DNA from: a bacterium
Lineage (GTDB): Bacteria; Patescibacteriota; Minisyncoccia; Phycocordibacterales; CAIZLB01
Direction: 5' to 3'
DNA length: 41,489 nt
NCBI GenBank assembly: GCA_037127815.1
Contig: JBAXXP010000002.1
Span: forward strand, 1-41,489
This document shows, in pieces, positions 1,068-19,639 of the stretch. The notes beneath the pieces are model-generated. The model worked only from the letters and a program-made list of their open reading frames with translations, did no database searches and was not told where the DNA came from. How positions within the stretch are numbered: position 1 is the first letter of the stretch; each line of letters opens with the position of its first letter. Made by a program: the position numbers and the translations under genes.

Positions 1068-1592
1068 ATGTCTAGAAAGACACATATAACCAAACTTAAG
1101 GAGGATTTTTCCAAAACCTATGAAGAGCATTCAGATGCAATTTTTCGATACGCATATTTTAAGCTCTCAGACACGGAAAAAGCCAAGGATGTTGTCCAAG
1201 ACACATTCGTTAAGTTTTGGGAGTACATTTCAGCAGAAAGCGAGTTACAGAATGTAAAAGCACTTCTTTACAGAATCGCTCTAAATACAATTATTGATCT
1301 CTATAGAAAACGCAAAACTTTCTCTTTGGATACATTGGCGGAAGATGGTTTCGAGCCAATTTATGAGCCAGAGAAAAATGAGTTTGAAAGACATGAGTCA
1401 GAAGCAGTATTAAAGGCAATAAATGAACTGGGTGAGGAGGATAGAAATATAATGTTCATGAGATATGTAGAAGGGCTTTCGTTTGATGATATCGCAGAAG
1501 TAGTAGGAGAAAGATCAAATACTATTGCTGTAAAGGTGCACAGATTGCTTAAACAATTAAGGCAATCTCTCAATATTGAGGAAGAAAAATAA
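1068..1592 (+). CDS. ECF-type RNA polymerase sigma factor
   Basis: A 174-aa sigma-70 family protein of ECF size. Region 2 is at about residues 18-55 ('DAIFRYAYFKLSD', then 'DVVQDTFVKFW') and region 4 at about 118-168 ('LGEEDRNIMFMRYVEG', then 'SFDDIAEVVGERSNTIAVKV'), with the usual short linker and no regions 1 or 3. It would direct RNA polymerase to a small regulon. The next gene begins four bases after its stop and encodes a membrane protein with a DUF5667 domain, the expected position for an anti-sigma partner. No Shine-Dalgarno is seen before the ATG. The palindrome at 1041-1053 may be an autoregulatory site. Signal and targets cannot be read from the sequence. Confidence 0.9.
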   Translation: MSRKTHITKLKEDFSKTYEEHSDAIFRYAYFKLSDTEKAKDVVQDTFVKFWEYISAESELQNVKALLYRIALNTIIDLYRKRKTFSLDTLAEDGFEPIYEPEKNEFERHESEAVLKAINELGEEDRNIMFMRYVEGLSFDDIAEVVGERSNTIAVKVHRLLKQLRQSLNIEEEK

Positions 1593-1596
1593 AACC

Positions 1597-2913
1597 ATGA
1601 TTGAAAAAAAGATTAACAATTTAAAAGGACACCTATCAAACGTTCATATGTCAGCAGATGACAAGAGAGACGTTTTTAAGCGTATTCTTCTTGTTGTTGA
1701 TAAGATTGAGGCTGTTTCTTCAGAATTTCATAGCACCCCTGTTCTTTCTCCATTTTCTAATAAGTTAGTTTTCGATAGTAAAATGTTCAGTAGCAATTTT
1801 GCTTCGGATATTTTTATATATTTTAAACAAAGAAAATTTGTCCCATCGCTAGTTATAGTTTTATTACTTTGTGTTACTGGTGGTTTTTCTGCTGCTGCAG
1901 AAAATGCACTTCCTGGTGATTCATTGTATTCATTAAAGGTTAATGTAAATGAGCAGGTAAAGGGCATGGTTGCGGTTACTCCAGAGGCAAAAGCTCGTCT
2001 TGCTGTTGAAACAACAGAAAGAAGACTGCAGGAGGCTGTTATACTATCGTCACAAGGTCAGTTGACTGATGATAAAAAATTAATCATACAAGATCAGCTA
2101 AGCAAAAACGCCACTGACGTAAAGAATAGTGTTGCATCATTAGTTGCTTCAAACAACATTTCAATAGCACAGGAAGTTTCCGTTAATTTTGAAGCGTCCC
2201 TAAAAACTCATGAACTAATACTTGAGACTCTTACAAAAAATGCTAATGGTTCATCTAATGCAAGCACAACTGATAGTGGTTTGAATGCGGCATTAGCATC
2301 AAACGAGACCTCAACTACAACGGGAGCTTTACCTGCTATTGTTTCAAATCAAAATCAGATTGCTACAATCGAGCAACCTATAGCAACAACCTTAATGCAG
2401 GATATCAGACAAGAGATAAACTCAAGCGCATTAGTTAGAGAAACATTGTCACAAAAGGAAATTGTAGATGGTTCAGATCCTGTAAAACTAGCTGCTAAAA
2501 TTAAAGAAGTGAAGTTGAAATATACTGATTCTGTTAATCAAGTTAAAAACTTAACAGATTTAAGTACAGCGTCAAAGAAATTATTTGAGAGTTATTTAGG
2601 AACAGCTTCATCAACAGTAAAAGATGCAGAGGTTGCCCTACAAAAGAATGACCTTACAGGAACAATAATTTTACTACAGCAATCTATTAAGTCATTAAGT
2701 GATTCAGACTCGTTAATTTCGATAGAGTTAAATAGTGGTCCAGAGACAAGAAAGGCACTAGAATTAATTGATATAAACAAGTTAATAAATTCTGATTTAT
2801 ATAATTCAAACTCCGCATCATCTACAAGTGCAAGTGGAGCCGTCCTTGGAACTAGTACATCATCAGTTTCTGCAACTTCATCAACTTCATCTGTAAGTCA
2901 AATTGTTAAATAG
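1597..2913 (+). CDS. DUF5667-domain membrane protein, probable anti-sigma partner
   Basis: A 438-aa protein from the ATG at 1597, four bases after the sigma-factor stop; a TTG at 1576 overlaps the sigma gene and is less likely. Residues 1-75 are cytoplasmic and helical. A membrane helix is at about 81-103 ('LVIVLLLCVTGGFSAAAE'). Directly after it is the DUF5667 signature 'ENALPGDSLYSLKVNVNE', followed by a helical region to about residue 205. The rest is low-complexity, Ser/Thr/Ala-rich and extracytoplasmic, with a further helical stretch at about 265-390. Co-transcription with an ECF sigma gene and the topology suggest a membrane anti-sigma or envelope sensor; this role is inference, since DUF5667 has no established biochemistry. 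A terminator follows at 2960. Confidence 0.7.
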   Translation: MIEKKINNLKGHLSNVHMSADDKRDVFKRILLVVDKIEAVSSEFHSTPVLSPFSNKLVFDSKMFSSNFASDIFIYFKQRKFVPSLVIVLLLCVTGGFSAAAENALPGDSLYSLKVNVNEQVKGMVAVTPEAKARLAVETTERRLQEAVILSSQGQLTDDKKLIIQDQLSKNATDVKNSVASLVASNNISIAQEVSVNFEASLKTHELILETLTKNANGSSNASTTDSGLNAALASNETSTTTGALPAIVSNQNQIATIEQPIATTLMQDIRQEINSSALVRETLSQKEIVDGSDPVKLAAKIKEVKLKYTDSVNQVKNLTDLSTASKKLFESYLGTASSTVKDAEVALQKNDLTGTIILLQQSIKSLSDSDSLISIELNSGPETRKALELIDINKLINSDLYNSNSASSTSASGAVLGTSTSSVSATSSTSSVSQIVK

Positions 2914-3915: not shown

Positions 3916-3944
3916 TTGACTCTAAAAGACATACATAATATAAT
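3916..3944 (+). promoter_or_regulatory. Near-consensus sigma-70 promoter of the dockerin/cohesin/two-component block
   Basis: TTGACT (3916-3921), exactly 17 bases, then TATAAT (3939-3944). This is the best promoter in the window. Transcription should start near 3951, leaving an untranslated leader of about 75 bases that contains the terminator-like hairpin at 3985-4011. Confidence 0.75.
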
Positions 3945-4024: not shown

Positions 4025-7000
4025 ATGAATTTAAACTATAAAAAAAGAATCTCTTATATAATATTTGGATTTGTTTCTGTTTTTTCATTATTCATTTTCT
4101 TACCGCAGGTAGTTGATGCTGCAACTTGTACTGCAAGCGCTGGTAATTGGAGCGCTGTTGGGACATGGTCTTGTGGACGTGTTCCGCTTTCAACTGATGA
4201 TGTTGTTATACCTAACACGACAGGTGTAAATGTAACAGTTGATACTACTGCAGTAGCTTCTACCGTCACATTTACTGCAGGTAATAAATCAAACGCGATA
4301 AACATAAGTGGATCTAACACATTAACTATAACAGGTTTAATTAGCATAGGATTACCTTCATCGAATAAAATTAAAAAAATTGATGTTGGTAGTGGAAGCT
4401 TGACTGCCGGTTCAATTTCTCTTTTAGGTACAACTGGCACGACAAATACTACGGATATAAATGTATCCACTGGAATAGTCACAGTATCTGGGAACATAAC
4501 TTCTGCTGGCGTTGCCTCCAGAATTATATTTTCTGGAGCGGGAACGTTAAATGCAGGAGGTACTTTTTTGAGCGGGGCAACTGGAACCTTCACTGCCGGA
4601 AGTAGTATTGTGAATTACAATGCATCAGGAGCACAAAATATCGGTCCGTACAATTATTATAGCTTAACAGCATCCGGAAGTAATACAAAAACTACCACAG
4701 CTGCAATGACAGTTGGTGGTAATCTTAATATAAATTCTGGAACGACATTTGCAACAGGAGTTACTAGTACATGGACACTTGGTGTTACAGGTACAACAAC
4801 AGTTTCTGGAAACTTAACACTTGCTAATACAGGAAGTAAAACATTTTCAGGTAATGTCATATTAAACGCTGGTAGTGTTTGGAATGAGACAGGTGTTGCG
4901 TCTGTTACTATCAATGGAAATATTGTAAATAATGCCACTACCTTTACTGCAAATACTGGTAGCCACACATTCAGTGGATCAAATAAAACTTTTAGTGGTT
5001 CAACTGCAACTGTAATTCCGGGTACTGCTATTTTTGCAGGAGGTGCATATACAAATAATGGTACGTTTTCTGCATCGACCTTGAGTACACTAGTGGGTGG
5101 TGCAACATTTGCAAATAATGGAACAACTACGGTTTCTGTTGCGTTATCAGGAAGTGGTGGATTCACCCAAGGTTCAACTGGATTACTAAATTTTGCCAGC
5201 ACAACAATCGGCATTACTACTTTCTCTGCTAATGCCTCTGGTAACACTGTAAGTTATACTGCGAGCGCTCCACAAACAATTAGAGCTGTACCTTATTATA
5301 ATCTTACCCTGAGTGGTTCTGGTACAAAAACTATGACGGGCGTCACAACAATTGGAGGAAATTTTTCATTGATAGGAACATCTACAGCAACCGCTGCTTC
5401 TGGATTAACTATTGGAGGAAATGTTTCCATTGGAACAGGTACAACTTTTAATGGAGGCGCTGCTCTTACTCATAATGTAGTTGGAAATTGGTCAAACGCC
5501 GGAACATTTACTCCTTCAACATGTACTGTTAACTTTAATGGTGGAAGCCAGTTAATAAATAATGCAAATACTTGGTACAATCTTTCAATAACAGGAACCT
5601 CTGCTAGAACTGTTACCTTACAGAGTGGGGTAAAACAGACTGTTTCAAATAACTTGACTTTGAATGGAGCCTCAGGACAACTTTTGACTCTTGCTCCATC
5701 AGCATCTCCAACACAATGGCAACTTAGTGCACCGGCAACTCAAAGTGTGACTTATACTTCTCCTTCATATTCTGATGCAAGTAGTGGAACAACTGTTACC
5801 GCGACTGGCGGGACTAATGTTGATGGTGGAAATAATATTAATTGGAATTTTATTTCAAACCCTATCCCAACAACGACCGGTATCTCACCAACTTCAAAAA
5901 CAGCAGGCGATGCGGGTTTTACTTTAACAGTTAACGGAACAAATTTTGTTGCAAGTTCAACTGTAAATTTCAATGGTTCCGCTAGAACAACGTATTTTTC
6001 AACTTCTACACAACTAACTGCAGATATCTTAAGTACAGATTTGCTTACCGTTGGAACTTCTTCTATAACAGTGTTCAGTCCAATTCCAGGAGGGGGAACT
6101 TCTAATTCACAAATATTTACAGTTAATGCAATCAATACGACAACAGGCCTAATAACGTCAAGTAGTACATTAACTTATGGAACTTCAGCAACATTTACTG
6201 CTACTGTCACACCAACTAGTGATGGATCTCCATCAGGAACGGTTACCTTCAAGGATGGTTCGGTGGTTATTGGAACGAGTACTCTTAATGGGGCAAACCC
6301 TGGAGTAGCCACCCTTGCAACTTCAACACTCTCTGTTGTAGGTTCACCTCATTCAATTATTGCTGTTTATGGAGGAGATAGTACACATAATGTAAGTACT
6401 TCCAGTAACGTGTCACAAACATTTACTGCAAAAAATTTAACAGTTACAGGAATTACTGCGAATAATAAAATTTACGATGGAAATGCATCAAGCACTCTAA
6501 ATTTAGGTAGCGCTACTTTGAATGGAGTGGTTAGTGGTGATTCTGTAATCCTAGGTACTTCATCTGCTGTTGGAACTTTTGACACTCCAAATGTAGGCTT
6601 AGGAAAAACGGTTGCTATTTCTGGACTTTACATTACTGGTACGAGCTCTTCAAATTATAGTTTGACTCAGCCAATAACTACTGCAGACATCACAAACCCA
6701 CTTCCAACAACAACATCAATCAACCCCACAACAAAAAACGTTGGTGACGCACAATTTTCAATGACTGTTAACGGAACAAACTTTGTTAATGGATCTACCG
6801 TTAACTTCAATGGTTCGGCCCGCGCCACAACATACGGAAGCTCCACACAATTAACTGCAACCATTCTTGCAACTGATTTGCTTGTTGCAACAACTACAGC
6901 TGCAATCACTGTTACAAACTCCGCACCCGGTGGTGGCACATCAAATGCTCAGACCTTTACCGTTATTGCCTCTGCTCCAACTGTCAATATTACCGCATCA

Positions 7001-10000
7001 TCAACTGCAATCACCCTTGGACAATCGTCACAACTTACATGGACATCCACAAACTCCACTTCATGTACCGCATCAGGTGATTGGTCAGGATCAAAAGCAA
7101 CAAGCAGTTCTGAATTTGTTACTCCACTTTCAACAGGTCTTAAAACTTACACATTAACTTGTGGAGGACCTGGCGGAACTGCAAGCAGTTCCGCAACAGT
7201 GAATGTTACAAACCCACTTCCAACAACAACATCAATCAACCCCACAACAAAAAACGTTGGTGACGCACAATTTTCAATGACTGTTAACGGAACAAACTTT
7301 GTTAATGGATCTACCGTTAACTTCAATGGTTCGGCCCGCGCCACAACATACGGAAGCTCCACACAATTAACTGCAACCATTCTTGCAACTGATTTGCTTG
7401 TTGCAACAACTACAGCTGCAATCACTGTTACAAACTCCGCACCCGGTGGTGGCACATCAAATGCTCAGACCTTTACCGTTGTCGAGACAATGCCAACTCC
7501 GGTAATATCATCTATTTCTCCTAGTTCTAAAAATGTAGGGGATCCCCAATTTATCTTAACAGTAATTGGTACTGGGTTAGTTGCTTCCTCAACTGTTCAA
7601 GTGAATGGAAGCGATCGTACAACCTTATATTCATCGTCAACAACAATTACTGCTACAATTCCAGCATCAGATTTACTTGCTTCTACCACTCTTGTAATTA
7701 CTGTAACTAATCCTGCACCTGGGGGAGTAAGTAACTCTAAAAATCTAACTGTTAGTCCTGGGGCAATAGTTCCAACACAATTTGTTATCACAAGCGCAAC
7801 AAATGGAACAATAGACCTTGCAAGTTATGTGACCATTCAAGCACAAAATTCTGCTGGAGTTCTTGCAACAACATATCAACAAGATGTAACTTTGGTTACA
7901 AATAATTCTGCATCAGGTGGAGGGCTAGTTAATATAATTAATGGAGTTGGAACTACTACAATTTCTGACAATGTTGTAGAAAATGTTCACTTATCATTAT
8001 CAGATACTCAGTCAACGGGATTGATTGCAACATCTACAGCTGATATTTCATTTGGACCTGGCGCAACAAAAAATCTAACTATTACAGGCAGCACTACTGC
8101 TATGACTGCTGGAACTAGATTAGCTATGACTGTAACCAGACAGGATAGATTAGGAAATCTAGTTACTGCAGGAAGTGAATCCTTCTACCTATATAGTAAT
8201 TCTTTTGGTGCGAAGAAGTTCTATAACGCAGTAAGTGGTGGATCAATTGTTACAGAGGCTTTGATTCCAAATAATTATTCATCAGCCACAGTTTGGTATT
8301 ACGATGATAGAACTGGCGCCCCAAGAGTTACGGTTTCAGATTCATCTCCTACAGCTGATGGCCCAATAGGGGTTGTTGATGCAACTGTAGACCTTACTGT
8401 GACAAGTGATGTGACCTCAAGCTTTACGATTAATAACCCTGGTAATTTAATTGCCGGACAAAGGTTAGCTTATGAAGTGAGCAGAAGGGATCAATTTGGT
8501 AATACAGCCGATTCTGATTCTGTAACTGTTTACCTTCATCATACACCATCTGGAACCTCAACTGCATTCTATGATGCATCCTCGGGTGGGGCAACGTTAA
8601 CATCAAGGATAATGTCAGCTGGCATTGCCACAACAAGTTTCTGGCTTTATGCAGATCTTGCCGGTAGCTTAACAGTGACAGCATCTGATAATTCAATGGG
8701 AGGAGATGGTTCAGCGGGAATAAACGATGCGTCTGATAGCTTTACTGTTAATCCTGCAACCGCCTCTATTTTAACTTTAAATAACCCTGGAAATATGACT
8801 GTTGGAACAAGTTTGGGTTATACGGTTTCAAGATATGATTCATATGGAAATACTGTAAGTACTGGAGATTTAATCGTTAATCTATCTCATGATGCAACTG
8901 GTACAAGTACAGCCTTCTATAATTTGGCTAGTGGTGGAATTACAATTTCCTCAGTTACTATCGCAGATGGAACTTATTCAAAGGATTTCTGGTTTTATTC
9001 AGAAGATGCTGGAAGTTATAATGTAACTACCTCTGATGGACCATCAGGATTAACTGATGCAATAGATCCTGTTGTTGTGAGCTTAATACCAATCATTCCA
9101 TTTAAGATTGTTATTCTTGACCCATCTTCTCCAACGGCAAATGTTGGTTCAACAACTCCAATATATATTCAGGTACAGGACGTATCAGGAAATTTAGATA
9201 CGGCATATAACGGCAGTGTAACACTTCATAGTACTGGAAATTCTACACCTGGGGCTGTTGGCGCGACCGTAAATATTATTGGTGGTGTAGGTTCAACAAA
9301 CATTGTCGATATTAAGGCAGAGTTGGTCTCACTTACTCTAGAAGATACTTCACCAACAGGACTAGATGTTACATCGACAAAGTCAATTACTTTTATTCCA
9401 GGACCTACTACAAAATTTGTAATGACGGGGACAAATAGTAGTGCCGCAGGAGAAAGGACGCAACATACAATTGTTAGAAAAGATCAATATGATAATCAAA
9501 TTACATCGGGGGTCGATGCTGTGTATCTTTATGACAACGCACCAATTGGTACTGCGAACTTCTATAATGCAGCGACAGCTGGAACACAAATTACATCCGC
9601 CTCAATTCTAAATGGTTTTGCTTCAACTGACGTTTGGTTTGCTGGAATTAGATCTGGTAGTTGGGTAATAGATGCGTCTGATAATGGAAGTCATGCTGAT
9701 GCTGGTTTTGGAATAGATGATGCAACTTCAACCGTAGTGATTAGCCCAGCTGCTACAGCTCGCCTGGCCTTAAATGATCCAGGGGATATGTTTAATGGAA
9801 CTCGTCTGGGATACATTGGAACTAGATATGATGCATATGGTAATGAAGTAACATCAGGAACTACTCATTATTTTCTTTCATCAAACGCAGCGGGTGCTTC
9901 CACAACATTTTACTCAGTCGCAAGTGGCGGCTCACCAATGACAGAACTTAATTTTTCTGAAGGAAATTCTCAGGCTACCTTCTGGTATTATGAAACAAAG

Positions 10001-11155
10001 AATGGAATTTGGACTGTGTATCTTTCAGATAATTATGGCGGACCAGATGGCTCTGCGGGAATTATCGATGGAGAGGATTCTGTCACGGTTTCTGCCGTAC
10101 CAATTGTAGCTACTAAATTTATCATTGTGTCAGATAATACTGCTCTTACAGGCTCTCCATTAACTGTTGTTGTTAGGGCTGTTAATAATAATGGTGACAT
10201 TGATACAACTTATCAACATGATGTTACCTTGAATGCATCAGGGGGAGCCACAGGAGGTGGATTGGTCGATATAATAAACGGTGTTGGGCAGATAATAATA
10301 AATGATTCAAATGAAGAAACAATAAACCTTACATTAAGTGATACTGCTCATACTGGTTTAAATGTTTCTGATAGTCAAAGTGTTGTGTTCAGCAAAACTG
10401 TTGTAATTCCATCTGGTGGATACGGCGGGGGTGGTGGAGGGTGGATTACTCCCCAGGTATCATTTGTTGGTCGAGCTTTTCCGCAAGCAAATGTTGAAAT
10501 CATGGCAATTCAAGACGGACAAATTCCAGTAGGAGGAAGATCAAATGTTTCATCAGGCGGAAACTTCAGCTCTAAGTTTAATGGGCAACTACCTTCATCG
10601 GCAAATACATTTGCTTTAGTTGTTTATGATAAAGACAATCGTATTGCACAGACAAAAATATTTAAGCTTGGTGTAAATGATCAATTAATTAGCACTATAT
10701 TTATGGCGCCAACAATCAGTCTTAAGCAACAATCAGTAGGTAGAGGTGTATTTATGGGTATAGAAGGATCGGCAATGCCAGGTTACAAAATAGAAATGAT
10801 GCTTGATGGGGTTAAGGCCCCAGAGACCACTTCAGCATTAAGTGATGGTAGTTACAGTCTAAATTTCAACACATATCGCCTTGGTCTAGGTGAACATACT
10901 TTGCGCGTTCGTCAGGTCGATACGCAAGGTAAATCGTCCGATTATTCCATTGAGAAAAACTTTCAAGTTATAAGAGTTCTATCAACAAAAGCTGATTTGA
11001 ATAATGATGGAAAAATAGATGTAACAGATTGGGGAATATTTATGGCACGTTACAATTCTACTTATCCTAAGATAAAGCTGGGGGCTGATATAAATAGCGA
11101 CGGAAGGGTGGATGTATCAGATTTGAATTTATTCAAGAGCTCATTAGCTCGATGA
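4025..11155 (+). CDS. Giant secreted multidomain surface protein with C-terminal type I dockerin
   Basis: A 2376-aa exported protein. The ATG at 4025 starts a good signal peptide ending near 'FLPQVVDAATC'; an upstream in-frame TTG lies inside the leader hairpin and is unlikely. Domains in order: a 'GNWSAVGTWSCG' module (about 40-62); repetitive Thr/Ser/Gly-rich beta-strand region to about 610; IPT/TIG-like domain (614-700); Big_3_5-like Ig domain (701-800); YDG-like repeat (802-888); two identical IPT/TIG-like domains (890-980 and 1062-1152) flanking a CPR-type Ig module; a fourth IPT-like domain (1156-1247); then alternating A-type repeats (about 1248, 1692, 2025) and five B-type repeats of about 115 aa (1347-1687, 1793-2024). 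A Gly-rich hinge (about 2130-2141) and Ig-like tail lead to a dockerin (about 2321-2376) with two calcium loops, 'DLNNDGKIDVTD' and 'DINSDGRVDVSD'. The next gene encodes a cohesin-domain membrane protein, its likely receptor. Adhesion or surface coat is inferred. Confidence 0.85.
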   Translation: MNLNYKKRISYIIFGFVSVFSLFIFLPQVVDAATCTASAGNWSAVGTWSCGRVPLSTDDVVIPNTTGVNVTVDTTAVASTVTFTAGNKSNAINISGSNTLTITGLISIGLPSSNKIKKIDVGSGSLTAGSISLLGTTGTTNTTDINVSTGIVTVSGNITSAGVASRIIFSGAGTLNAGGTFLSGATGTFTAGSSIVNYNASGAQNIGPYNYYSLTASGSNTKTTTAAMTVGGNLNINSGTTFATGVTSTWTLGVTGTTTVSGNLTLANTGSKTFSGNVILNAGSVWNETGVASVTINGNIVNNATTFTANTGSHTFSGSNKTFSGSTATVIPGTAIFAGGAYTNNGTFSASTLSTLVGGATFANNGTTTVSVALSGSGGFTQGSTGLLNFASTTIGITTFSANASGNTVSYTASAPQTIRAVPYYNLTLSGSGTKTMTGVTTIGGNFSLIGTSTATAASGLTIGGNVSIGTGTTFNGGAALTHNVVGNWSNAGTFTPSTCTVNFNGGSQLINNANTWYNLSITGTSARTVTLQSGVKQTVSNNLTLNGASGQLLTLAPSASPTQWQLSAPATQSVTYTSPSYSDASSGTTVTATGGTNVDGGNNINWNFISNPIPTTTGISPTSKTAGDAGFTLTVNGTNFVASSTVNFNGSARTTYFSTSTQLTADILSTDLLTVGTSSITVFSPIPGGGTSNSQIFTVNAINTTTGLITSSSTLTYGTSATFTATVTPTSDGSPSGTVTFKDGSVVIGTSTLNGANPGVATLATSTLSVVGSPHSIIAVYGGDSTHNVSTSSNVSQTFTAKNLTVTGITANNKIYDGNASSTLNLGSATLNGVVSGDSVILGTSSAVGTFDTPNVGLGKTVAISGLYITGTSSSNYSLTQPITTADITNPLPTTTSINPTTKNVGDAQFSMTVNGTNFVNGSTVNFNGSARATTYGSSTQLTATILATDLLVATTTAAITVTNSAPGGGTSNAQTFTVIASAPTVNITASSTAITLGQSSQLTWTSTNSTSCTASGDWSGSKATSSSEFVTPLSTGLKTYTLTCGGPGGTASSSATVNVTNPLPTTTSINPTTKNVGDAQFSMTVNGTNFVNGSTVNFNGSARATTYGSSTQLTATILATDLLVATTTAAITVTNSAPGGGTSNAQTFTVVETMPTPVISSISPSSKNVGDPQFILTVIGTGLVASSTVQVNGSDRTTLYSSSTTITATIPASDLLASTTLVITVTNPAPGGVSNSKNLTVSPGAIVPTQFVITSATNGTIDLASYVTIQAQNSAGVLATTYQQDVTLVTNNSASGGGLVNIINGVGTTTISDNVVENVHLSLSDTQSTGLIATSTADISFGPGATKNLTITGSTTAMTAGTRLAMTVTRQDRLGNLVTAGSESFYLYSNSFGAKKFYNAVSGGSIVTEALIPNNYSSATVWYYDDRTGAPRVTVSDSSPTADGPIGVVDATVDLTVTSDVTSSFTINNPGNLIAGQRLAYEVSRRDQFGNTADSDSVTVYLHHTPSGTSTAFYDASSGGATLTSRIMSAGIATTSFWLYADLAGSLTVTASDNSMGGDGSAGINDASDSFTVNPATASILTLNNPGNMTVGTSLGYTVSRYDSYGNTVSTGDLIVNLSHDATGTSTAFYNLASGGITISSVTIADGTYSKDFWFYSEDAGSYNVTTSDGPSGLTDAIDPVVVSLIPIIPFKIVILDPSSPTANVGSTTPIYIQVQDVSGNLDTAYNGSVTLHSTGNSTPGAVGATVNIIGGVGSTNIVDIKAELVSLTLEDTSPTGLDVTSTKSITFIPGPTTKFVMTGTNSSAAGERTQHTIVRKDQYDNQITSGVDAVYLYDNAPIGTANFYNAATAGTQITSASILNGFASTDVWFAGIRSGSWVIDASDNGSHADAGFGIDDATSTVVISPAATARLALNDPGDMFNGTRLGYIGTRYDAYGNEVTSGTTHYFLSSNAAGASTTFYSVASGGSPMTELNFSEGNSQATFWYYETKNGIWTVYLSDNYGGPDGSAGIIDGEDSVTVSAVPIVATKFIIVSDNTALTGSPLTVVVRAVNNNGDIDTTYQHDVTLNASGGATGGGLVDIINGVGQIIINDSNEETINLTLSDTAHTGLNVSDSQSVVFSKTVVIPSGGYGGGGGGWITPQVSFVGRAFPQANVEIMAIQDGQIPVGGRSNVSSGGNFSSKFNGQLPSSANTFALVVYDKDNRIAQTKIFKLGVNDQLISTIFMAPTISLKQQSVGRGVFMGIEGSAMPGYKIEMMLDGVKAPETTSALSDGSYSLNFNTYRLGLGEHTLRVRQVDTQGKSSDYSIEKNFQVIRVLSTKADLNNDGKIDVTDWGIFMARYNSTYPKIKLGADINSDGRVDVSDLNLFKSSLAR
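6692..6964 (+). repeat. 273-bp perfect direct repeat, copy 1
   Basis: Base-for-base identical by eye to 7208-7480 (offset 516). It encodes one 91-residue IPT/TIG-like domain of the giant surface protein. It is in frame and uses more C-ending codons (AAC, ACC, GCC) than surrounding repeats, suggesting recent duplication or acquisition. Confidence 0.95.
7208..7480 (+). repeat. 273-bp perfect direct repeat, copy 2
   Basis: Second copy of 6692-6964. The two copies flank a 243-bp spacer coding for an Ig-like module ('PTVNITASSTAITLGQ' onward) of similar C-rich codon use. Recombination between copies would remove exactly 516 bp, 172 codons, and keep the frame. Confidence 0.95.
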
Positions 11156-11203
11156 TTCATATATCGATAATTAATTAGATTCAATTTATTTAAAAATAAA
11201 AAC

Positions 11204-12922
11204 ATGTCAATAACATTAAAAATAAAATTAGGTTTTCTTGCGTTAGCTTTCAGTTTATTATCACCATTTTATGCAAGTGCTGCAACTTTGGATTTAGCGC
11301 TGGAGCAAAATATTTCATCTGTAAAAGATGACGTGGTCGTACTGGTGACTTTAAACAGTGAAGGACAAGATGTAAATACTGCACAGGCTACAATTTCTTT
11401 TCCTGCAAACTTGCTGTCAGTGACAAAACTTGATCAAATAGGTTCAATATTCTCTTTTTGGTTAGAGGAACCATCATTTGATAACGCAAAAGGAACAATT
11501 AGATTTGTTGGAGGAGCAACAAGTGGTTTTACGGGTTCTGGTCTTAAGGTGCTTAGAGTAGCCTTTAAGGTTAAAGGGAGTGGTAGTGGAAGACTTGGAA
11601 TTACAGATGGGGCAATTACCGCAAGCGATGGTACTGGTAGTAATGTCTATACAACTGCCAAAGGACTAGATATAAGTATTCCCGCTACAGCTGACTTCAC
11701 TGCTGTTAAAGCAGAAAGATCACAGCAAGAGGCAACTATTGCAAAACAGCTTCCTGCCTTAATTGGGCTAGATGTACCTTTCTATCCAGATGCAACAAAG
11801 TGGAATAATCATTCAGCTAGTTTTCAAGCAAAGTGGAATGTTACTTCTGATGTAATTCAACAAGCTATTTCTTTAGATAATAAACCTACAACTATTCCTG
11901 CTGCAAGTCCGACAGCCCTAATTGGAAGCAGAGTATTTTCAGCGCTTGCAGATGGCGTTTGGTATATACATATTCGATCTCAAAATAATATTGGATGGAG
12001 TCCTACGCTTCATTATAGAATTGCAATTGATACCGCTCCACCAGTACCATTTAAGATAACGAGTGATAGTGGCTTCAAGACGGGTGAACCAAGTCCTATA
12101 ATTAGATACGTAAGTAGTGATGTTACCTCTGGTCTAGATGTTTATTCAATACGTATTGATGGTGTACTTGCTACTACAACAAAGCTTACAAACTACCGTT
12201 TATCAGCACTTCTTCCAGGTGTTCATAATCTTGTTGTTACAGCTGTTGATAAGGCAGGGAATTCAACTTCACAAGCTGAGGTTTTAGAAATATTACCAAT
12301 AGCATCCCCAACAATTAGTTATGTTAATCGTAAGGTGGTTTTGAATGAGGGGGAGATTGTCGCTGGTGGAACTGCTTCAGTAGGAGTGGAGATTATTGTC
12401 CAGATTCAAAATTCTGAGAAACAAATTGTTATTGAACAAGTTGTACCTATAGATAGTAATGGTAATTGGAATGTGACAATAAATGAAGCTATGACCGAAG
12501 GTAATTATTATCTGATGGCTACTGCTCGCGATAGAAATATGTCCTCTAGTTTCCCAGTAGTATCTCAGTCTATAAGTGTTAAACCAAGGCCCATGCTTGT
12601 AATAGGGGTATTGGAGATTACGCAAGCTTGGTTTTTCATAGATTTAATAATTATTCTACTACTTAGCTTTGGAGCAGGGGTTCTGACTTATTATAACTGG
12701 CGTGGACAATTAGGAAGAAGAGTAACTATCGCACAAAGAGATGTTATAAATATTCTTGAAAATATAAGAAAAAATATTGATAAATTACTTAAAGACTACA
12801 AAGGTGGAGATTTAAGTGATAGTGATTTGACAAAGATAGAACAGACCCTTAAAAGCATGAAAAGTGATATAGAGAAGTCTAGTCACTATGTTGTCGATAA
12901 CATAAGAGAAATTAATCGTTAA
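11204..12922 (+). CDS. Membrane-anchored cohesin-domain protein
   Basis: A 572-aa protein: signal peptide (about 1-26, ending 'FYASAA'); a cohesin-like beta-sandwich (about 27-155, with 'TAQATISFPANLLSVTKL', 'FWLEEPSFDNAKGTIRFVGG' and 'LRVAFKVKGSGSGRLGITDG' following the cohesin pattern); two or three Ig-like domains (about 175-460); one membrane helix (about 477-499, 'FFIDLIIILLLSFGAGVL'); and a cytoplasmic helical tail (500-572). Cohesins bind dockerins, and the neighbour 48 bases upstream ends in a dockerin, so this protein probably holds the giant surface protein on the cell. Its tail and the histidine kinase starting 17 bases after its stop suggest it may also pass a signal inward. The cohesin call rests on pattern recognition; the interaction and signalling are inference. 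Confidence 0.75.
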   Translation: MSITLKIKLGFLALAFSLLSPFYASAATLDLALEQNISSVKDDVVVLVTLNSEGQDVNTAQATISFPANLLSVTKLDQIGSIFSFWLEEPSFDNAKGTIRFVGGATSGFTGSGLKVLRVAFKVKGSGSGRLGITDGAITASDGTGSNVYTTAKGLDISIPATADFTAVKAERSQQEATIAKQLPALIGLDVPFYPDATKWNNHSASFQAKWNVTSDVIQQAISLDNKPTTIPAASPTALIGSRVFSALADGVWYIHIRSQNNIGWSPTLHYRIAIDTAPPVPFKITSDSGFKTGEPSPIIRYVSSDVTSGLDVYSIRIDGVLATTTKLTNYRLSALLPGVHNLVVTAVDKAGNSTSQAEVLEILPIASPTISYVNRKVVLNEGEIVAGGTASVGVEIIVQIQNSEKQIVIEQVVPIDSNGNWNVTINEAMTEGNYYLMATARDRNMSSSFPVVSQSISVKPRPMLVIGVLEITQAWFFIDLIIILLLSFGAGVLTYYNWRGQLGRRVTIAQRDVINILENIRKNIDKLLKDYKGGDLSDSDLTKIEQTLKSMKSDIEKSSHYVVDNIREINR

Positions 12923-12939
12923 TTCAGATAGTTATTAAA

Positions 12940-14004
12940 ATGAAAAAAAGTCCTGAAAAAATATTGGATGAAAAGCAGATTAAAAATCTTTTAAAGTACG
13001 TAGCTTTTTTGGATAAAGAAAAAGCAAAAATTGCAGCAAGGTTGTTGATTGCCAATGCAAAAATACTTTTCCAAGCCCATGAAAAAACTGATGCAAATAA
13101 AAAGCTTAGAAAAAGGAGTGAAGAGATTGAAAAAAGACATGCAATACAAATTTCAAAACAGATTGCCAAATTACTAATTTCAAACACAGCACTTGTTCAA
13201 GAAACAATGCAGAAGGTAAAGAAAACAAATGAATTAATTACTGTGAACGAGGAGTTAAAAAAAATAAAAGATGACTATCTCTCGATTGTAATACATGAAA
13301 TTAAAACGCCCTTGGTTCCTATTAAGTCTCAATTGCAGCTTCTTTTAGCAGGAGATTACGGTGAGTTGAACGGCGAACAAAGAGAAGCTGTAGAAATGAT
13401 ATACAGAAATGAAGAGAATCTCAATAGACTTTCAATGGAAATACTAACTATTTCAAAGATTAGGTCAGGGAGATTTGATTTACATTTACAACTATTGTCA
13501 GCAACAAAAATTTTTGAAGAAATTGTTAAGGAATTTGAAGCTGTATCAATAACTAAAAAAATTACTTTTACACATTCTATTCAAGCAGGGCTACCAAATA
13601 TATCTGCAGATAAAATAAGGTTAATTGAAGCAATTAGAATTCTTCTAGATAACGCTTTTAAATTTACACCAGAAGGGAATTCTGTAAATTTGGATATTAA
13701 GAGAACAGATAGAAACTTAATCGTCTCCGTAAGTGATACGGGGATCGGAATCGAATCAATTAATTTTGAAAAAATATTTTCATTATTTTTTCAGATTAGT
13801 AATGAACTTACTAGGAAATATGGTGGCAATGGACTAGGTTTAGCTATCGCCAAAGGTATCGTAGAGGCTCATGGAGGAAAAATATGGGTAGAAAGTAATG
13901 GATTGGGAAAGGGAAGTACCTTTACGTTTAGTATCCCAATTACGAATAAAATCGTAAAACGTAAATTAATAATAAAAACAAAAAATTATGCCAATAGAAA
14001 ATAA
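12940..14004 (+). CDS. Soluble histidine kinase with coiled-coil N-terminus
   Basis: A 354-aa sensor kinase lacking membrane helices and recognised input domains. Residues 1-110 are a Lys/Glu/Ala-rich coiled coil. The HisKA H-box 'IHEIKTPL' has the phospho-acceptor at H119. The HATPase_c domain follows with N-box 'DNAFKFTPEG', G1 box 'VSDTGIGI', and G2 'GGNGLGLAIAKGIVEAHGG'. All catalytic motifs look intact. It starts 17 bases after the cohesin gene and its end overlaps the next receiver gene by 17 bases, indicating translational coupling. With no sensor of its own it may be controlled by a partner, possibly the cytoplasmic tail of the cohesin protein; that is inference. Confidence 0.88.
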   Translation: MKKSPEKILDEKQIKNLLKYVAFLDKEKAKIAARLLIANAKILFQAHEKTDANKKLRKRSEEIEKRHAIQISKQIAKLLISNTALVQETMQKVKKTNELITVNEELKKIKDDYLSIVIHEIKTPLVPIKSQLQLLLAGDYGELNGEQREAVEMIYRNEENLNRLSMEILTISKIRSGRFDLHLQLLSATKIFEEIVKEFEAVSITKKITFTHSIQAGLPNISADKIRLIEAIRILLDNAFKFTPEGNSVNLDIKRTDRNLIVSVSDTGIGIESINFEKIFSLFFQISNELTRKYGGNGLGLAIAKGIVEAHGGKIWVESNGLGKGSTFTFSIPITNKIVKRKLIIKTKNYANRK

Positions 14005-14368
14005 AAAAGTTAGAATTCTCCATGTAGATGATGAAGAAGATACACAAAAAGTAGTTAAGACAATTTTAGAAAAAGAAGGTTATGAGGTTGTAAGTGTTAG
14101 AGATGGTGTTGGGGCATTAAGAGAGATTAATCTTGATAATTATGACCTATTAATTTTAGATATCATGATGCCCAATATGTCAGGTTGGGAATTATACACA
14201 AAGATATTAAAAATTAAGGAGAAGGAAAAGGTAATATTTCTTTCTATCTTAGATATACCAGCTGATAAATTAAATGAATTAACAAAAAGTGGTGTTAGGG
14301 ATTATATTAAAAAACCATTTGATCGAGATGACTTTGTCGCTAGAGTAAAAAAGGTACTTATCTCATAA
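13988..14368 (+). CDS. Stand-alone response regulator receiver (REC 1)
   Basis: A 126-aa single CheY-like domain. The acidic pocket is in 'ILHVDDEEDTQ', the phospho-acceptor is D58 in 'LILDIMMPNMSG', and the conserved Lys is in 'YIKKPF'. No output domain. It overlaps the upstream kinase gene by 17 bases, so it is the likely direct partner. The position normally held by Thr/Ser is serine ('FLSILD'). It may act as a phosphate shuttle or control a protein by binding; no DNA-binding output is seen in this cluster. Confidence 0.88.
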   Translation: MPIENKKVRILHVDDEEDTQKVVKTILEKEGYEVVSVRDGVGALREINLDNYDLLILDIMMPNMSGWELYTKILKIKEKEKVIFLSILDIPADKLNELTKSGVRDYIKKPFDRDDFVARVKKVLIS

Positions 14369-14386
14369 TAAAATACGAAAAATAAT

Positions 14387-16009
14387 ATGAAAAATAAAGA
14401 TGATCCAAATAAGACCGATGATAGTAATGTAAAAAGTAATCCTGCTTCTGATAACATGGAAGTTGTGAAAATTGAAAATGATCTATTTAAAATAGCTTAT
14501 TTTCAATTAAGAAATGTTGTCAAAAAACTAGAAGAAAGTGAATATTTCTTCAGAGAGTCTCAAAGAGCTGCTTTTATAGGTTCTTATTATCTTGATTATC
14601 AAAAGGATATATGGAAATCTTCAGAAGTTCTGGATATAATATTTGGAATTCATTCTGATTATAAAAGGAGTATTCAATCATGGGTAGATATTGTTCATCC
14701 TGATTATAAAGCAGAGATGTCATCATACTTTGAAGGTTTGATATCTTCAAAAAATAAAATATTCAACAAAGACTATAAGATTATAAGAAGAAATGATAAG
14801 GAATTAAGGTGGGTTAGAGGGCTTGGTGCGCTAGAATTCAACACTAAGGGAGAAATGGTTTCTATGTCAGGTACAATTCAAGATATCACTAATATAAAAG
14901 TCGCTCAGGAAAATGATAAAAAAACATCTGAGGAGTTAAGAAAAGCTCAGCATATTGCTAAAATTGGTAATTTTTCATTAGATTTGAGAACTAATAAAGC
15001 GATATTGTCTGGTGAATTATTGAATATATATGGTCTTAATCCTAATAATAATGCAATAACTCATGAGGAGTTTTTGAATATAATACACCCTGATGATAGG
15101 CAAAGAATTAAACTTGAAATTGAGCAAGCAATTGGTAGTAAGCAATTAAATACGGAGACAGAGTATAAAATTGTTCTCAAAAATGGTATTGAGAAAATAA
15201 TTAGAGGTAGCTCGGAAATTGTATATGAAAATGGTCAGCCTATCACTTTCTTTGGAGTTGCTCAGGATATTACGGAAAGAAAATTACTTGAAGAAGCTAA
15301 ATCAGGTTTTTTATCTATCATTTCTCATCAACTTAATACCCCCCTTTCTATGACAAAATGGGTGCTAGAAGTTCTGACGGATGATAAAGATTTAACTCCG
15401 AGACAAAGAGAAAAAGTTAACGATCTTAATATTTCAAACGAGAGATTGATATCGCTTGTAAAGAGACTTATGAATGTAGCTCATATTGAATCAGGCAGAC
15501 TCATTGCAAATAGAGTAACGACAGATATTAAAAAACTTGTTGAAAATTTAATTGAAGAAATTAAACCTTTAGCTTTTAAAAAAGATAAAATTATTAGTTC
15601 TCATATACCAGAGAAACTAGATAGTATAAATTGTGACCCTTTATTAATCCATGAGGCACTAGAAAACTTACTTACAAATGCTATTGAGTACTCTACTGAA
15701 AATAGCAAAACAATTGATATTTCTATTGCAGACAGGGTCGATGATTATTTAATTTCAGTGCATAACGCCGGCTTAATAGAACCAATGCTTTCTGAAAAGA
15801 TTAGAAAATTTGATAAATTTTCACACGGAGGCAAGATGTCCTATATGCAACCTTCAGGTAGTGGTCTTGGGTTGTATATCGCGAAAAATGTTGTGGAAGT
15901 GAACGGAGGAATGCTTTGGTTTGAGTCCTCAGCTGAAGCTGGGACTACGTTTTATTTCACAATAAATAAGATAGTAAAATTAATAGAAAATAATAATCAC
16001 AATATATAA
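14387..16009 (+). CDS. PAS-PAS histidine kinase, soluble
   Basis: A 540-aa cytoplasmic kinase. A polar N-terminus (1-55) precedes two PAS/PAC domains (about 60-165, ending 'GTIQDITNIK', and about 185-300, ending 'GVAQDITERKLLEEAKSGF'). HisKA follows with the H-box 'ISHQLNTPLSMTKWVLEVL' (H314) and HATPase_c with N-box 'ENLLTNAIEY' and G2 'GSGLGLYIAKNVVEVNGG'. The G1 box reads 'VHNAGLIEP', with Asn in place of the usual Asp, a variation that could weaken ATP binding. No membrane segment, so the PAS domains would sense an internal cue or a cofactor. Its stop overlaps the ATG of the next receiver by one base (TAATG). Confidence 0.87.
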   Translation: MKNKDDPNKTDDSNVKSNPASDNMEVVKIENDLFKIAYFQLRNVVKKLEESEYFFRESQRAAFIGSYYLDYQKDIWKSSEVLDIIFGIHSDYKRSIQSWVDIVHPDYKAEMSSYFEGLISSKNKIFNKDYKIIRRNDKELRWVRGLGALEFNTKGEMVSMSGTIQDITNIKVAQENDKKTSEELRKAQHIAKIGNFSLDLRTNKAILSGELLNIYGLNPNNNAITHEEFLNIIHPDDRQRIKLEIEQAIGSKQLNTETEYKIVLKNGIEKIIRGSSEIVYENGQPITFFGVAQDITERKLLEEAKSGFLSIISHQLNTPLSMTKWVLEVLTDDKDLTPRQREKVNDLNISNERLISLVKRLMNVAHIESGRLIANRVTTDIKKLVENLIEEIKPLAFKKDKIISSHIPEKLDSINCDPLLIHEALENLLTNAIEYSTENSKTIDISIADRVDDYLISVHNAGLIEPMLSEKIRKFDKFSHGGKMSYMQPSGSGLGLYIAKNVVEVNGGMLWFESSAEAGTTFYFTINKIVKLIENNNHNI

Positions 16010-16455
16010 TGACTAATTCAGATATAAACGAGGGGAAAAAGAATTTACTTCTTATTGTAGAGGATGAGAAAATATTATCAAAAACAATGAATGAGAAGTT
16101 TTCTCAGGAAGGTTATAGCGTAATTCAAGCTTATGATGGTGTACAAGGTCTTAAATTAGCAAAACAGAATCATCCGGATCTTATATTACTTGACTTATTA
16201 ATGCCAAAAATGGATGGAATGAGTATGCTAAAAGAGTTGCGTAATGATATTTGGGGAAAAAAAGTACCGGTTATTATTCTTACAAATCTGTCTGCAAATG
16301 ATGAGGATAGACTTAAGGCTGTTGTTGAACTTGAACCGACCTACTATTTTGAGAAGGTCGATAAAGGTTTAGAGGAAATTGTAGAAACAATAAAGGATAG
16401 GTTGGCTTACAAGGAACAAAAAACAGACAAAAATAGTGCAGTACAAATCGCATAA
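16009..16455 (+). CDS. Stand-alone response regulator receiver (REC 2)
   Basis: A 148-aa CheY-like protein: acidic pair in 'LLIVEDEKIL', phospho-acceptor D62 in 'LILLDLLMPKMDG', Thr in 'IILTNLS', Lys in 'YFEKVDKG'. The C-terminal 20 residues are polar and carry no output domain. The one-base overlap with the PAS-PAS kinase gene strongly suggests they act as a pair. Confidence 0.88.
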   Translation: MTNSDINEGKKNLLLIVEDEKILSKTMNEKFSQEGYSVIQAYDGVQGLKLAKQNHPDLILLDLLMPKMDGMSMLKELRNDIWGKKVPVIILTNLSANDEDRLKAVVELEPTYYFEKVDKGLEEIVETIKDRLAYKEQKTDKNSAVQIA

Positions 16456-16503
16456 AAATTAGAAGACCTAATAAAGTTAATAAAAATAATTAAATATAAT
16501 AAT

Positions 16504-16875
16504 ATGAAAATACTAATAGTTGAAGATGAGGACATTTTGGTTAGGGTTCTTAGAGAAAAATTTGAAGATAATGGTTTTGATGTCGAGGTTGCAGAGGAGG
16601 GTGATAAGGTTATTCCCCTTGTAGAAAAGTTTAAGCCAGACATGATTCTACTTGATATATTTCTTCCAAAATTGAATGGAATGGATATTTTGGAGAAATT
16701 AAAGGATGATGAAGTTATGAAAACTATTCCAGTAATTATTATCTCAAACCTAGACGATGACAAGAAGATAAAGGAGGCATTAAACCTAGGTGCGGTTGAC
16801 TATATTGTTAAAAGTCAACATCCAATCAATGAAGTTGTAGAGCTGGTTAACAAGTATATATTAAAGGCAAAATAA
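16504..16875 (+). CDS. Stand-alone response regulator receiver (REC 3)
   Basis: A 123-aa single receiver domain with 'ILIVEDEDIL', phospho-acceptor D51 in 'MILLDIFLPKLNG', Ser in 'IIISNLD' and Lys in 'DYIVKSQHP'. It lies 48 bases after REC 2 and closes the two-component block. It has no output domain. REC 2 and REC 3 share the loop variation after the conserved Lys (not followed by Pro), unlike REC 1, suggesting they derive from one duplication. Confidence 0.87.
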   Translation: MKILIVEDEDILVRVLREKFEDNGFDVEVAEEGDKVIPLVEKFKPDMILLDIFLPKLNGMDILEKLKDDEVMKTIPVIIISNLDDDKKIKEALNLGAVDYIVKSQHPINEVVELVNKYILKAK

Positions 16876-17329: not shown

Positions 17330-19639
17330 TTGCTTTCAAGCATGGATTGGAGTATTTTTAATGATAAACTTTCTTCGTCATTAAACACTGGTAAAATATT
17401 TATTGGTGATGGTTCTAATCTAGCAAGCCCAGTGAATCTTTCTGGCGATGCCTCACTTTCTAGTTCTGGTCTACTTACAATTTCAAGTAATGCTATTACT
17501 GCATCAAAAATTCTTGCTGGTAGTGTGAGTTATGACAAAATTCAAAATGTAAGCGGAAATAAACTGTTGGGTAATTCAACTGGTTCATCAGGAGCGGCTG
17601 GAGAAATAAGTTTAGGTAATAGTCTGGTATTTTCTGGAACTGATCTTAAAATCAACGCACCAACTTGTACTACAAATGAGCGTTTGAGTTGGGATGGAAC
17701 ATCTTTTGTTTGTAAAGTTGGAGCAGTCTTTATTAACTCTGTTGCTAATACTTTTCTTGCTGGACCAACGGGTGGTTCAGATGCTACTTCAAGTTACCGT
17801 GCAATTGTAGCTGCAGATCTTGGTGTAGGTACATCTACAAATCAAGAAGTTTTGAGAGGAGACCAAACATGGTTTCAATTATTTGATGGAGGTGGAAAAA
17901 TAAATTCATCAGTGCTTCCAAGCTCTATTACAGGGTCTCTAAAATTCCAGGGAACATGGAATGCAAATACAAACTCACCAAGCCTTACTTCTGGTGGTGT
18001 CGGTGGAGTGAGTGGAGATTTTTATGTTGTTGATGTCGCTGGAACTACAACAGTAGATGCCCACTCAGTATGGAATGTTGGAGATTGGATTATTAACGCT
18101 TCTTCTTCATGGGACCGAGTGCAACAAGGTGCAACGGTTTCTAGTGTAAATGGTGCTGGAGGAGCGGTAGTTCTGACAACTGATAATATTAATGAAGGTA
18201 TTACAAATAAATATTTCTCAAATGTTTTGGCAAGAGGTGCTCTTACAGGTTCTGGTCCTATATCATTTTCAACATCAACTGGAAGTATAGATTGTCCAAC
18301 TTGTTTAGTTAGTACTGGTAATGGAAATTTAGTACAGGGAACAGGGGTTGGTTTAAGTGGAAGTTTAACCGGACGTTTAATTGGTACTGGAAATGTAACT
18401 TTTTCTATAAATAACACAGCTGTGACCGCTGGTAGTTATGGGGCAAGTGCATCTATTCCAACTTTTACTGTGGATGCACAAGGAAGACTTACTTCTGCTG
18501 GTACGACAACTCTTGATACTTCAGCTATCACCTCAGGTACGCTATCTGTCAATCGTGGAGGAACAGGAGTAACAAGCTTTAATTCTCATGGAATTATATA
18601 TGGAAATGGTGGAGGAAATCTTACGTCCACATCGGCTGGTACTGCAGGTCAATTTCTAGTAGCAGATAATTCAGGAATTCCAGCTTTTGTTTCAGCAACA
18701 GGTGATGCAACTTTTGCAACATCAGGAGTTATAACTATTGGTACAGGATCTATTACATCAACAAAAATATTGGATGGAACAATTGCAAATGCTGATATTT
18801 CAGGAAGCGCAGGTATTGCATATGGTAAATTGAATCTTGCTGGGGCTATTTTAAATGCAGATATTGCTACTGGTACAATTGCAAACAATAAGCTTGCAAA
18901 TTCAGTCTTTGGATTAACTTTAGGAAGTTCTGGAAATGATATTTCTTTTTCATCCACATCTATTGCACTCGGAAATACCCTTGTTGTAAATATTCCAAAT
19001 GCATCTTCAATAGCAAGAGGAGTTATTTCTACAAGTACTCAAACTTTTGCTGGTAATAAAATTTTTAACGATTCATTATCAGTTACGGCAACATCAACAT
19101 TTGCTGGTAATTTTATCACTCCTAAAGGTACAGATTATACAACAATTGGAACTCAAGATAATGTAAATCTTGGATCAGGATCATTGATACGTTATACAGG
19201 GATTGGTGATAGTACATTTACTGGACTTGCGGGAGGTACAGACGGTAGGCAAATTCATATAATGAATGCTTCTTCGTACAACATTACACTTTCAGACCAA
19301 GATTCAGCTTCTGTTTCTGCTAATCGATTCACAAACCCTAACGGAACTTCTATAATCATCAGGCCGTTAACTACAGCTATGATACAGTATGATTCCGGTG
19401 CTTCAACATGGAGAATTTTAGCTGTTACACTTTCTGGTTTTTCTATAACTCAAGGTGGTAATGCCTTTGGTGCTGTCTCAACTATTGGTACAACAGATTC
19501 ATATGGATTAAACCTTATCACAAGCGGAAGCACTCGCTTCTCCATCGCCACATCATCAGCTACTCTATCAGGAACAGGTGCCACATCAATTGCTGGAGGA
19601 ACAACACTTGCTCTAACATCAGCTTCAGCATCTAATTAA
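17330..19639 (+). CDS. Main open segment of the frameshifted tail-fibre-like surface protein
   Basis: The longest intact piece, 769 aa from the first ATG, although the frame is open from at least 17096 and the true protein begins further upstream. Composition is Ser/Thr/Gly/Asn-rich with repeated short beta strands. Motifs resemble phage tail-fibre modules: 'SLKFQGTWNANTNSPSL', 'GDFYVVDVAGTTTVD', 'WNVGDWIINASSSWDRVQ', then 'SSVNGAGGAVVLTTDNI', and later 'TLSVNRGGTGVTSFNSHG'. Such proteins are expected to form extended, possibly trimeric fibres on the surface. It lies between the two-component cluster and the peptidoglycan-binding protein, which would be a plausible wall-attachment partner. 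The stop at 19637 is probably artefactual or a mutation. Confidence 0.7.
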   Translation: MLSSMDWSIFNDKLSSSLNTGKIFIGDGSNLASPVNLSGDASLSSSGLLTISSNAITASKILAGSVSYDKIQNVSGNKLLGNSTGSSGAAGEISLGNSLVFSGTDLKINAPTCTTNERLSWDGTSFVCKVGAVFINSVANTFLAGPTGGSDATSSYRAIVAADLGVGTSTNQEVLRGDQTWFQLFDGGGKINSSVLPSSITGSLKFQGTWNANTNSPSLTSGGVGGVSGDFYVVDVAGTTTVDAHSVWNVGDWIINASSSWDRVQQGATVSSVNGAGGAVVLTTDNINEGITNKYFSNVLARGALTGSGPISFSTSTGSIDCPTCLVSTGNGNLVQGTGVGLSGSLTGRLIGTGNVTFSINNTAVTAGSYGASASIPTFTVDAQGRLTSAGTTTLDTSAITSGTLSVNRGGTGVTSFNSHGIIYGNGGGNLTSTSAGTAGQFLVADNSGIPAFVSATGDATFATSGVITIGTGSITSTKILDGTIANADISGSAGIAYGKLNLAGAILNADIATGTIANNKLANSVFGLTLGSSGNDISFSSTSIALGNTLVVNIPNASSIARGVISTSTQTFAGNKIFNDSLSVTATSTFAGNFITPKGTDYTTIGTQDNVNLGSGSLIRYTGIGDSTFTGLAGGTDGRQIHIMNASSYNITLSDQDSASVSANRFTNPNGTSIIIRPLTTAMIQYDSGASTWRILAVTLSGFSITQGGNAFGAVSTIGTTDSYGLNLITSGSTRFSIATSSATLSGTGATSIAGGTTLALTSASASN

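Follow-up and report, generated by a model that had tools for sequence, protein, structure and literature searches.

The seven genes described here, from a very small, as yet uncultured member of the CPR/Patescibacteria, are best explained overall as a one-to-one surface attachment module which, in one clade of its membrane anchors (class A), is coupled to two-component signalling through receivers; we put the probability of this reading at roughly one half. Most CPR life is believed to be spent on other cells, and little is understood of the way in which contact is established and controlled at the surface of these bacteria. The window, by which we mean the whole stretch of DNA that was analyzed, comprises 41,489 nt of contig JBAXXP010000002.1 (GCA_037127815.1). 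Seven ORFs lie on its forward strand between 4025 and 16875, at the positions first given for them, and are separated in order by 48 bases (giant protein to anchor), 17 (anchor to HK1), -17 (HK1 to REC1), 18 (REC1 to HK2), -1 (HK2 to REC2) and 48 (REC2 to REC3). The first-pass annotation had proposed that they encode a giant dockerin protein, a cohesin anchor and five two-component proteins, and the ORFs, gaps, domain matches and predicted fold all confirmed this. The arrangement is more than chance. The features of the locus are as follows:

3916..3944, + strand: possible sigma-70 promoter (TTGACT, 17, TATAAT; 11/12), 80 bases upstream of the giant gene
4025..11155, + strand: exported dockerin protein, 2376 aa (signal peptide, domain matches)
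10985..11152, + strand: type I dockerin of that protein, residues 2321-2376
11204..12922, + strand: membrane-anchored cohesin protein, 572 aa, a class A anchor (homologues in 52/148 relatives; AF2 model pLDDT 89.9)
11276..11692, + strand: cohesin domain of the anchor, residues 25-163 (model pLDDT 96.7)
11750..12583, + strand: anchor stalk of Ig/FN3-like beta domains
12623..12919, + strand: TM helix at about residues 474-496, with a cytoplasmic tail that forms a helical hairpin and carries the class A motif RxxIAxRDV (helices of the model at 474-534 and 539-571; tail alignment)
12940..14004, + strand: HK1, soluble histidine kinase (Pfam HisKA, HATPase_c; His119)
13988..14368, + strand: REC1, single-domain receiver (Pfam; acceptor Asp58), overlapping HK1 by 17 bases
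14387..16009, + strand: HK2, soluble histidine kinase (Pfam: two PAS_3 matches, HisKA, HATPase_c; His314)
16009..16455, + strand: REC2, single-domain receiver (Asp62), grouping with receivers that adjoin class A anchors elsewhere
16504..16875, + strand: REC3, single-domain receiver (Asp51)

The promoter candidate is the top-scoring site of its region, but it is a weak one because the total number of sites there is about that expected from shuffled sequence.

The giant protein consists of a signal peptide, Thr/Ser-rich repeats, CoaZ/TIG, Big_3_5 and YDG modules, a Gly-rich linker, Ig-like modules and the C-terminal dockerin. Pfam Dockerin_1 (PF00404) matches residues 2323-2374 with an E-value of 1e-5 and a score of 26.1 bits, where the cut-off is 22.9, the two canonical loops are both present (DLNNDGKIDVTD at residue 2324 and DINSDGRVDVSD at residue 2355), and the best PDB matches of this C-terminal domain are dockerins, so the original assignment of a two-loop type I dockerin stands. 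With both calcium loops intact, calcium dependence of the dockerin is plausible.

Identification of its partner domain took more effort. PF00963 did not match the window's cohesin protein itself in a Pfam profile search and a phmmer search of PDB returned nothing, so that the sequence of the window would not by itself have made the cohesin call evident; among 76 homologous domains, 30 did match PF00963 (best 1.7e-9). Because a fold search with the full-length anchor was swamped by Ig arrays, the cohesin domain was folded alone. The model of residues 25-163 has the nine-strand cohesin fold, and its 50 best PDB matches in Foldseek are all cohesins, with E-values from 5e-8 to 5e-6 (best 5.2e-8), as had been predicted for residues 27-155. 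The most conserved positions of the domain (N34, W62, P66, G79 and G84) lie on model strands 3, 5 and 6. In known complexes, the sheet that includes these strands of cohesins is the dockerin-binding sheet. The remaining parts ascribed to the anchor were also recovered, namely Ig modules (Big_13, E 2.9e-11), one membrane helix and a cytoplasmic helical tail of 76 aa, with a single long helix running from the membrane into the tail in the full-length model. A SLATT-like profile gave a weak match to the tail (E 0.004, far below the cut-off) and was left unused.

Cohesin and dockerin are already known in CPR, and such genes in one CPR genome were read as cellulose degradation (PMC9123182). By analogy, a small cellulosome or other glycan-degrading complex would draw on the same two domain families seen here. 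However, the domain content contradicts this reading: the genome has one dockerin rather than several carried on enzymes, domain searches of the dockerin protein found no catalytic domain, and the single anchor-family protein has one cohesin domain and none of the repeats of a scaffoldin. We therefore regard a cellulosome as highly improbable at this locus. A one-to-one pair that is conserved and includes a membrane anchor offers a different and testable reading of cohesin and dockerin in CPR, that of surface attachment.

The pairing is indeed conserved. Of 148 relatives, 40 carry both dockerin and cohesin-family genes (Fisher p 1.6e-13), as do 45 of 287 genomes phylum-wide (p 1.1e-8). The loci are related by descent, and the p-values for co-occurrence and for the linkage described below overstate their independence. 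Where both genes are present in a relative they are neighbours in 35 of 40 cases, which supports a cognate pair. A scan of named genomes with one anchor sequence found no locus, whereas an alignment of class A anchors as query found 28. The size of the dockerin protein is less constant. The partner had been taken to be characteristically a giant filament, but class A dockerin proteins span about 320 to 3,316 aa, with some of the short examples truncated where a contig stops. Variable upstream parts ahead of a C-terminal dockerin are what one would expect of interchangeable cargo, and the dockerin could thus be a sorting tag, with the cohesin protein an export or assembly receptor that passes the surface protein to an S-layer instead of holding it. 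However, none of the genes of the run was seen to encode a transfer enzyme, and the very tight binding of cohesin to dockerin (rupture forces over 120 pN, cited in PMC6030884) suits holding; we consider a sorting role very unlikely.

In the anchor tree there are two clades, class A, which includes the window's anchor, and class B. Receiver and/or kinase genes lie in the same run at 32 of 39 class A loci but at only 2 of 37 class B loci (p 2e-12), so that the predicted order of dockerin, cohesin and REC/HK genes proved to be kept in relatives. A receiver lies within 4.5 kb at 34 of the 39 class A loci and a kinase within 6 kb at 28; two of them (L042 and L096) have no two-component genes nearby. 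Anchor-adjacent receivers do not form one clade, as REC2-like and REC3-like groups both occur. Class A tails have a conserved motif of their own, RxxIAxRDV. Class B anchors, which lack nearby receivers, also carry a helical tail that is similar and conserved, and the tail thus has some function independent of linked receivers. ORF maps of class B loci also gave rise to the idea of a type IV pilus link, which was rejected: the apparent PilC/PilB proved to be a MacB/FtsX ABC exporter, and prepilin motifs near anchors are rare.

Both kinases and all three receivers have the hallmarks of two-component proteins (HisKA and HATPase_c, or a phospho-acceptor Asp), although the ATP-binding region of HK2 reads HNAG in place of the usual DxGxG box. 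The receivers (123-148 aa) consist of the receiver domain only, with no response-regulator output domain found by Pfam, as the first-pass annotation had stated. Its description of the kinases as soluble was likewise upheld, and Pfam found no named sensor domain in HK1, the kinase said to lack one; the N-terminal stretch of HK1, however, looks helical from sequence. No HPt or second His-carrying intermediate was matched in the seven proteins, and for that reason the label of phosphorelay is not established.

The same annotation had supposed that engagement is reported from outside to inside, docking or tension of the fibre acting through the TM helix and tail of the anchor on the soluble kinases and from them on the receivers. 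Signal peptides aside, nothing in the run but the anchor crosses the membrane, and HK1, with its helix-like N-terminus, follows the anchor gene at a distance of 17 bases, as this route would lead one to expect. Yet the kinases adjoining class A anchors in relatives are of many unrelated architectures with sensors of their own (dCache, CHASE, HAMP, FAD-binding, GAF, PAS), many of them with membrane helices as well, several class A loci offer a receiver but no neighbouring kinase, and nothing equivalent to REC1 is found consistently next to class A anchors. Reporting through the tail to the kinases is thus not supported, and we judge it improbable. The constant partner of class A anchors is the output-less receiver, while the kinases vary, several having their own sensors; an inside-out direction, in which receivers act on the anchor, fits this pattern better and is favoured over reporting from anchor to kinase.

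It may instead be that the two-component genes regulate gene expression or another machine and are co-located only because they are needed under the same conditions. The lack of output domains leaves the choice of target free, and class B works without linked receivers. However, receivers shift position, upstream of the dockerin gene or downstream of the anchor gene, and still remain close to the pair across many families, and the eight best non-self matches of REC3 in 148 genomes all adjoin class A anchors. Linkage without contact therefore seems unlikely to us.

Under the attachment reading that we prefer, the dockerin-tailed protein would be exported and fold with calcium, its dockerin would plug into the cohesin at the head of the neighbouring anchor, and the anchor would tether it to the cytoplasmic membrane by way of Ig stalk, TM helix and helical tail. 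The two folds and the gene pairing make this attachment very probable. In class A, histidine kinases of varied inputs would phosphorylate the small output-less receivers, which most likely act by contact, with the conserved cytoplasmic tail of the anchor as the best candidate target, and such contact may alter how the surface protein is clustered, retained or presented. We propose this action from the inside tentatively. The more specific version, in which phosphorylated receivers bind the tail and the fibre is thereby held or released across many lineages of Patescibacteria, is possible but doubtful. The receivers could also act elsewhere than on the tail.

The recurrence of the whole set in many relatives points to attachment of a surface fibre tied to two-component signalling, and not to digestion of cellulose. 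We found no description of a dockerin-cohesin-receiver/kinase module in the literature. Its class-specific coupling to receivers provides two concrete pairs that can be tested, dockerin with cohesin and receiver with tail, and offers a reason for reduced genomes to keep receivers that lack output domains. If the proposal is true, the two-component system here would have a surface protein clip as its output.

Compared with known systems, the module shares with cellulosomal type I pairs the same two folds, the two calcium loops and a cohesin on a surface-bound protein, but it has one pair per genome, no enzymes and no scaffoldin, its anchor spans the membrane and ends in a cytoplasmic tail, and receivers are linked to it. 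In the Lap system, the adhesin LapA is controlled from inside via LapD, with c-di-GMP, HAMP/GGDEF/EAL domains and a protease. The logic proposed here is similar in that an internal signal governs retention of a giant surface protein, although the seven proteins include no HAMP-GGDEF-EAL receptor or periplasmic protease of the Lap type. Pairing outside cellulosomes is known from Archaeoglobus fulgidus (2xdh, which is among the best structural matches to the anchor cohesin domain, TM 0.78/0.79), C. perfringens GH84C (2w1n) and ANME archaea (PMC9012536, and Peer et al. 2009 as cited there); the available text of PMC9012536 describes no receivers or kinases with those proteins. The cultured saccharibacterium Southlakia epibionticum also has a dockerin surface protein, SEML1_0315, reported as essential in a genetic study (PMC10633639); its likeness to the module is by description, and no cohesin partner or signalling link was described for it. 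The TMEM132 family (PMC6030884) is eukaryotic, with a different tail and no known dockerin partner, but resembles the anchor in plan: its ectodomain, a cohesin and then Ig-like domains, precedes a single TM helix, and its cytoplasmic tail has been proposed to link the outside of the cell with the inside.

The giant exported protein and the cohesin protein next to it (the anchor) head a run of two-component genes, laid out with its surroundings as follows.

121-1011 (-) and 28249-29289 (+): YceG (MltG-like) genes, two within the 41-kb window
1068-2913, upstream of the run: sigma-70-family (ECF-like) sigma factor gene, then a DUF5667-domain gene that overlaps it
4025-16875, one strand: run of seven genes with gaps of 48, 17, -17, 18, -1 and 48 bases
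Gene 1 of the run: 2376-aa protein (the giant) with signal peptide, CoaZ/TIG, Big_3_5, YDG repeats, Gly-rich linker, Ig-like modules and C-terminal type I dockerin
6692-6964 and 7208-7480, in gene 1: two copies of a 273-base stretch (91 aa) at 100% DNA identity, which suggests recent duplication, gene conversion or an assembly effect
Gene 2 of the run: the anchor, 572 aa, which also has a signal peptide
Last five genes of the run: two soluble kinases (HK1, HK2) and three single-domain receivers (REC1, REC2, REC3)
14387-16009: HK2
17330-19639, 454 bases past the run: repetitive protein of 769 aa that weakly matches DUF5907 and has a surface- or fibre-like look

The giant's dockerin scores above the Pfam cut-off, has both of its calcium-loop motifs intact and has cellulosomal dockerins as its top matches (phmmer against the PDB). 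The anchor's own sequence matched neither Pfam Cohesin nor any PDB sequence. Among 76 domains homologous to its cohesin, 30 match PF00963 (best 1.7e-9), and the anchor-family profile picks up scaffoldin cohesins of Ruminococcus flavefaciens (E ~7e-5). Modelled with 76 aligned relatives, residues 25-163 reached a pLDDT of 96.7, and the best 50 PDB matches to this model are all cohesins, including the archaeal non-cellulosomal cohesin 2xdh (TM 0.78/0.79). In the full-length model (pLDDT 89.9) the cohesin is followed by beta domains in series, then by a helix at 474-534, corresponding to the membrane span and the beginning of the cytoplasmic tail, and by a second helix at 539-571. The dockerin-cohesin-two-component locus noticed in the first-pass annotation is confirmed, and stands on firmer ground than sequence reading could have placed it.

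The window's genome (842 kb, 95.6% complete) encodes a single dockerin and a single anchor-family protein, from adjacent genes. Among 148 relatives, the anchor family occurs in 52 genomes, the dockerin in 55 and both in 40 (19 expected; p 1.6e-13), and both families occur in 45 of 287 genomes sampled across the phylum (p 1.1e-8); because related genomes are not independent, both p-values exaggerate how strong the evidence is. In 35 of the 40 genomes the dockerin and a cohesin match share a strand and are under 2.5 kb apart, with the dockerin almost always on the upstream side. Another genome of the phylum, G574, uses dockerins differently, with 19 dockerin matches in proteins of up to ~1,600 aa.

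In a first tree of 42 anchors, the window's fell in a fully supported nine-member clade, with receivers and kinases close by in 8/9 versus 4/33 of the other anchors. This linkage was retested with new loci picked by anchor score alone, together with named genomes found by anchor pattern (including Wolfe-, Harrison-, Yonath-, Adler-, Ryan-, Nealson-, Magasanik- and Nomurabacteria). The larger tree, of 76 of the 77 distinct long anchors (one long-branch row was omitted), separates class A (39, with the window's anchor) from class B (37) with SH-aLRT 100. Receiver or kinase genes lie inside the same uninterrupted run in 32/39 class A loci versus 2/37 class B loci (p 2e-12). As for the remaining class A loci, L035 and L077 have such genes within ~1.3 kb, beyond a divergent gene; L074, L101 and L104 are truncated where the contig or the analysed stretch stops; and L042 and L096 have none nearby. 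Class A orders are usually HK-REC-dockerin-anchor, dockerin-anchor-REC or HK-REC-dockerin-anchor-REC, whereas in class B the dockerin is followed by a short and then a long cohesin protein. The tails also differ: class A conserves RxxIAxRDV, and the class B counterpart is KExxEAExxL, with a conserved KRxLTxEE after it. Near class B anchors, small proteins at L045:6162-6905 (-), also near a MacB/FtsX exporter, and L055:6387-7154 (-) match both cohesin and dockerin profiles. L057:10430-12886 (-) is an 818-aa fusion of the short and long class B cohesin proteins, with two cohesin domains.

The phospho-acceptor Asp is present in REC1, REC2 and REC3. Across 148 genomes, the eight best non-self matches to REC3 (100.6-135.5 bits) all lie beside class A anchors; the ninth scores 97.8 bits. 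REC2 and REC3 have counterparts at further class A loci, and REC1 is an outlier. HK2 has HNAG in its ATP-binding region where DxGxG is usual in histidine kinases, so its activity may be altered. Beside one class A anchor, a 530-aa protein (L032:12842-14434, -) carries a C-terminal REC3-like receiver after a long apolipoprotein-like helical region, so that receivers of this group may have an output that binds membranes.

Of the 39 class A loci, 34 have a receiver within 4.5 kb and 28 a kinase within 6 kb. The kinases come in very different types (dCache-PAS, CHASE-PAS, FAD-binding-PAS-GAF, HAMP-PAS, PAS-only), and at several loci, including that on the complete chromosome CP011209 (L093), a receiver stands directly 3' of the anchor with no kinase nearby. 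Because the kinases are interchangeable and have sensors of their own, and some loci have the receiver alone, we consider that the evidence favours coupling through the receiver. On the best reading, the dockerin would fold with calcium and be held by the anchor's cohesin head, and in class A the varied kinases would feed output-less receivers acting by contact, most likely with the anchor's tail. Of this picture, the analysis shows the domains, the cohesin fold, the gene pairing and the linkage to two-component genes, from which the binding, its dependence on calcium, the receiver-tail contact and the direction of signalling are inferred. The first-pass annotation's reading is upheld on the clip, and the locus is conserved. 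It also had dockerin engagement reported through the tail to the kinases; the same kinases and receiver-only loci speak against that direction, which is unproven and probably reversed.

Our literature search, which covered a minority of subscription papers, turned up no publication that links a cohesin-dockerin pair to two-component genes in CPR bacteria. A saccharibacterium dockerin protein was found to be essential (PMC10633639), and cohesins and dockerins outside cellulosomes are established (PMC9012536 and its references; PMC6030884). One paper interpreted CPR cohesin and dockerin expression as a cellulosome (PMC9123182); for the window's pair, that reading is contradicted by the single dockerin, the single cohesin and the lack of an enzyme.
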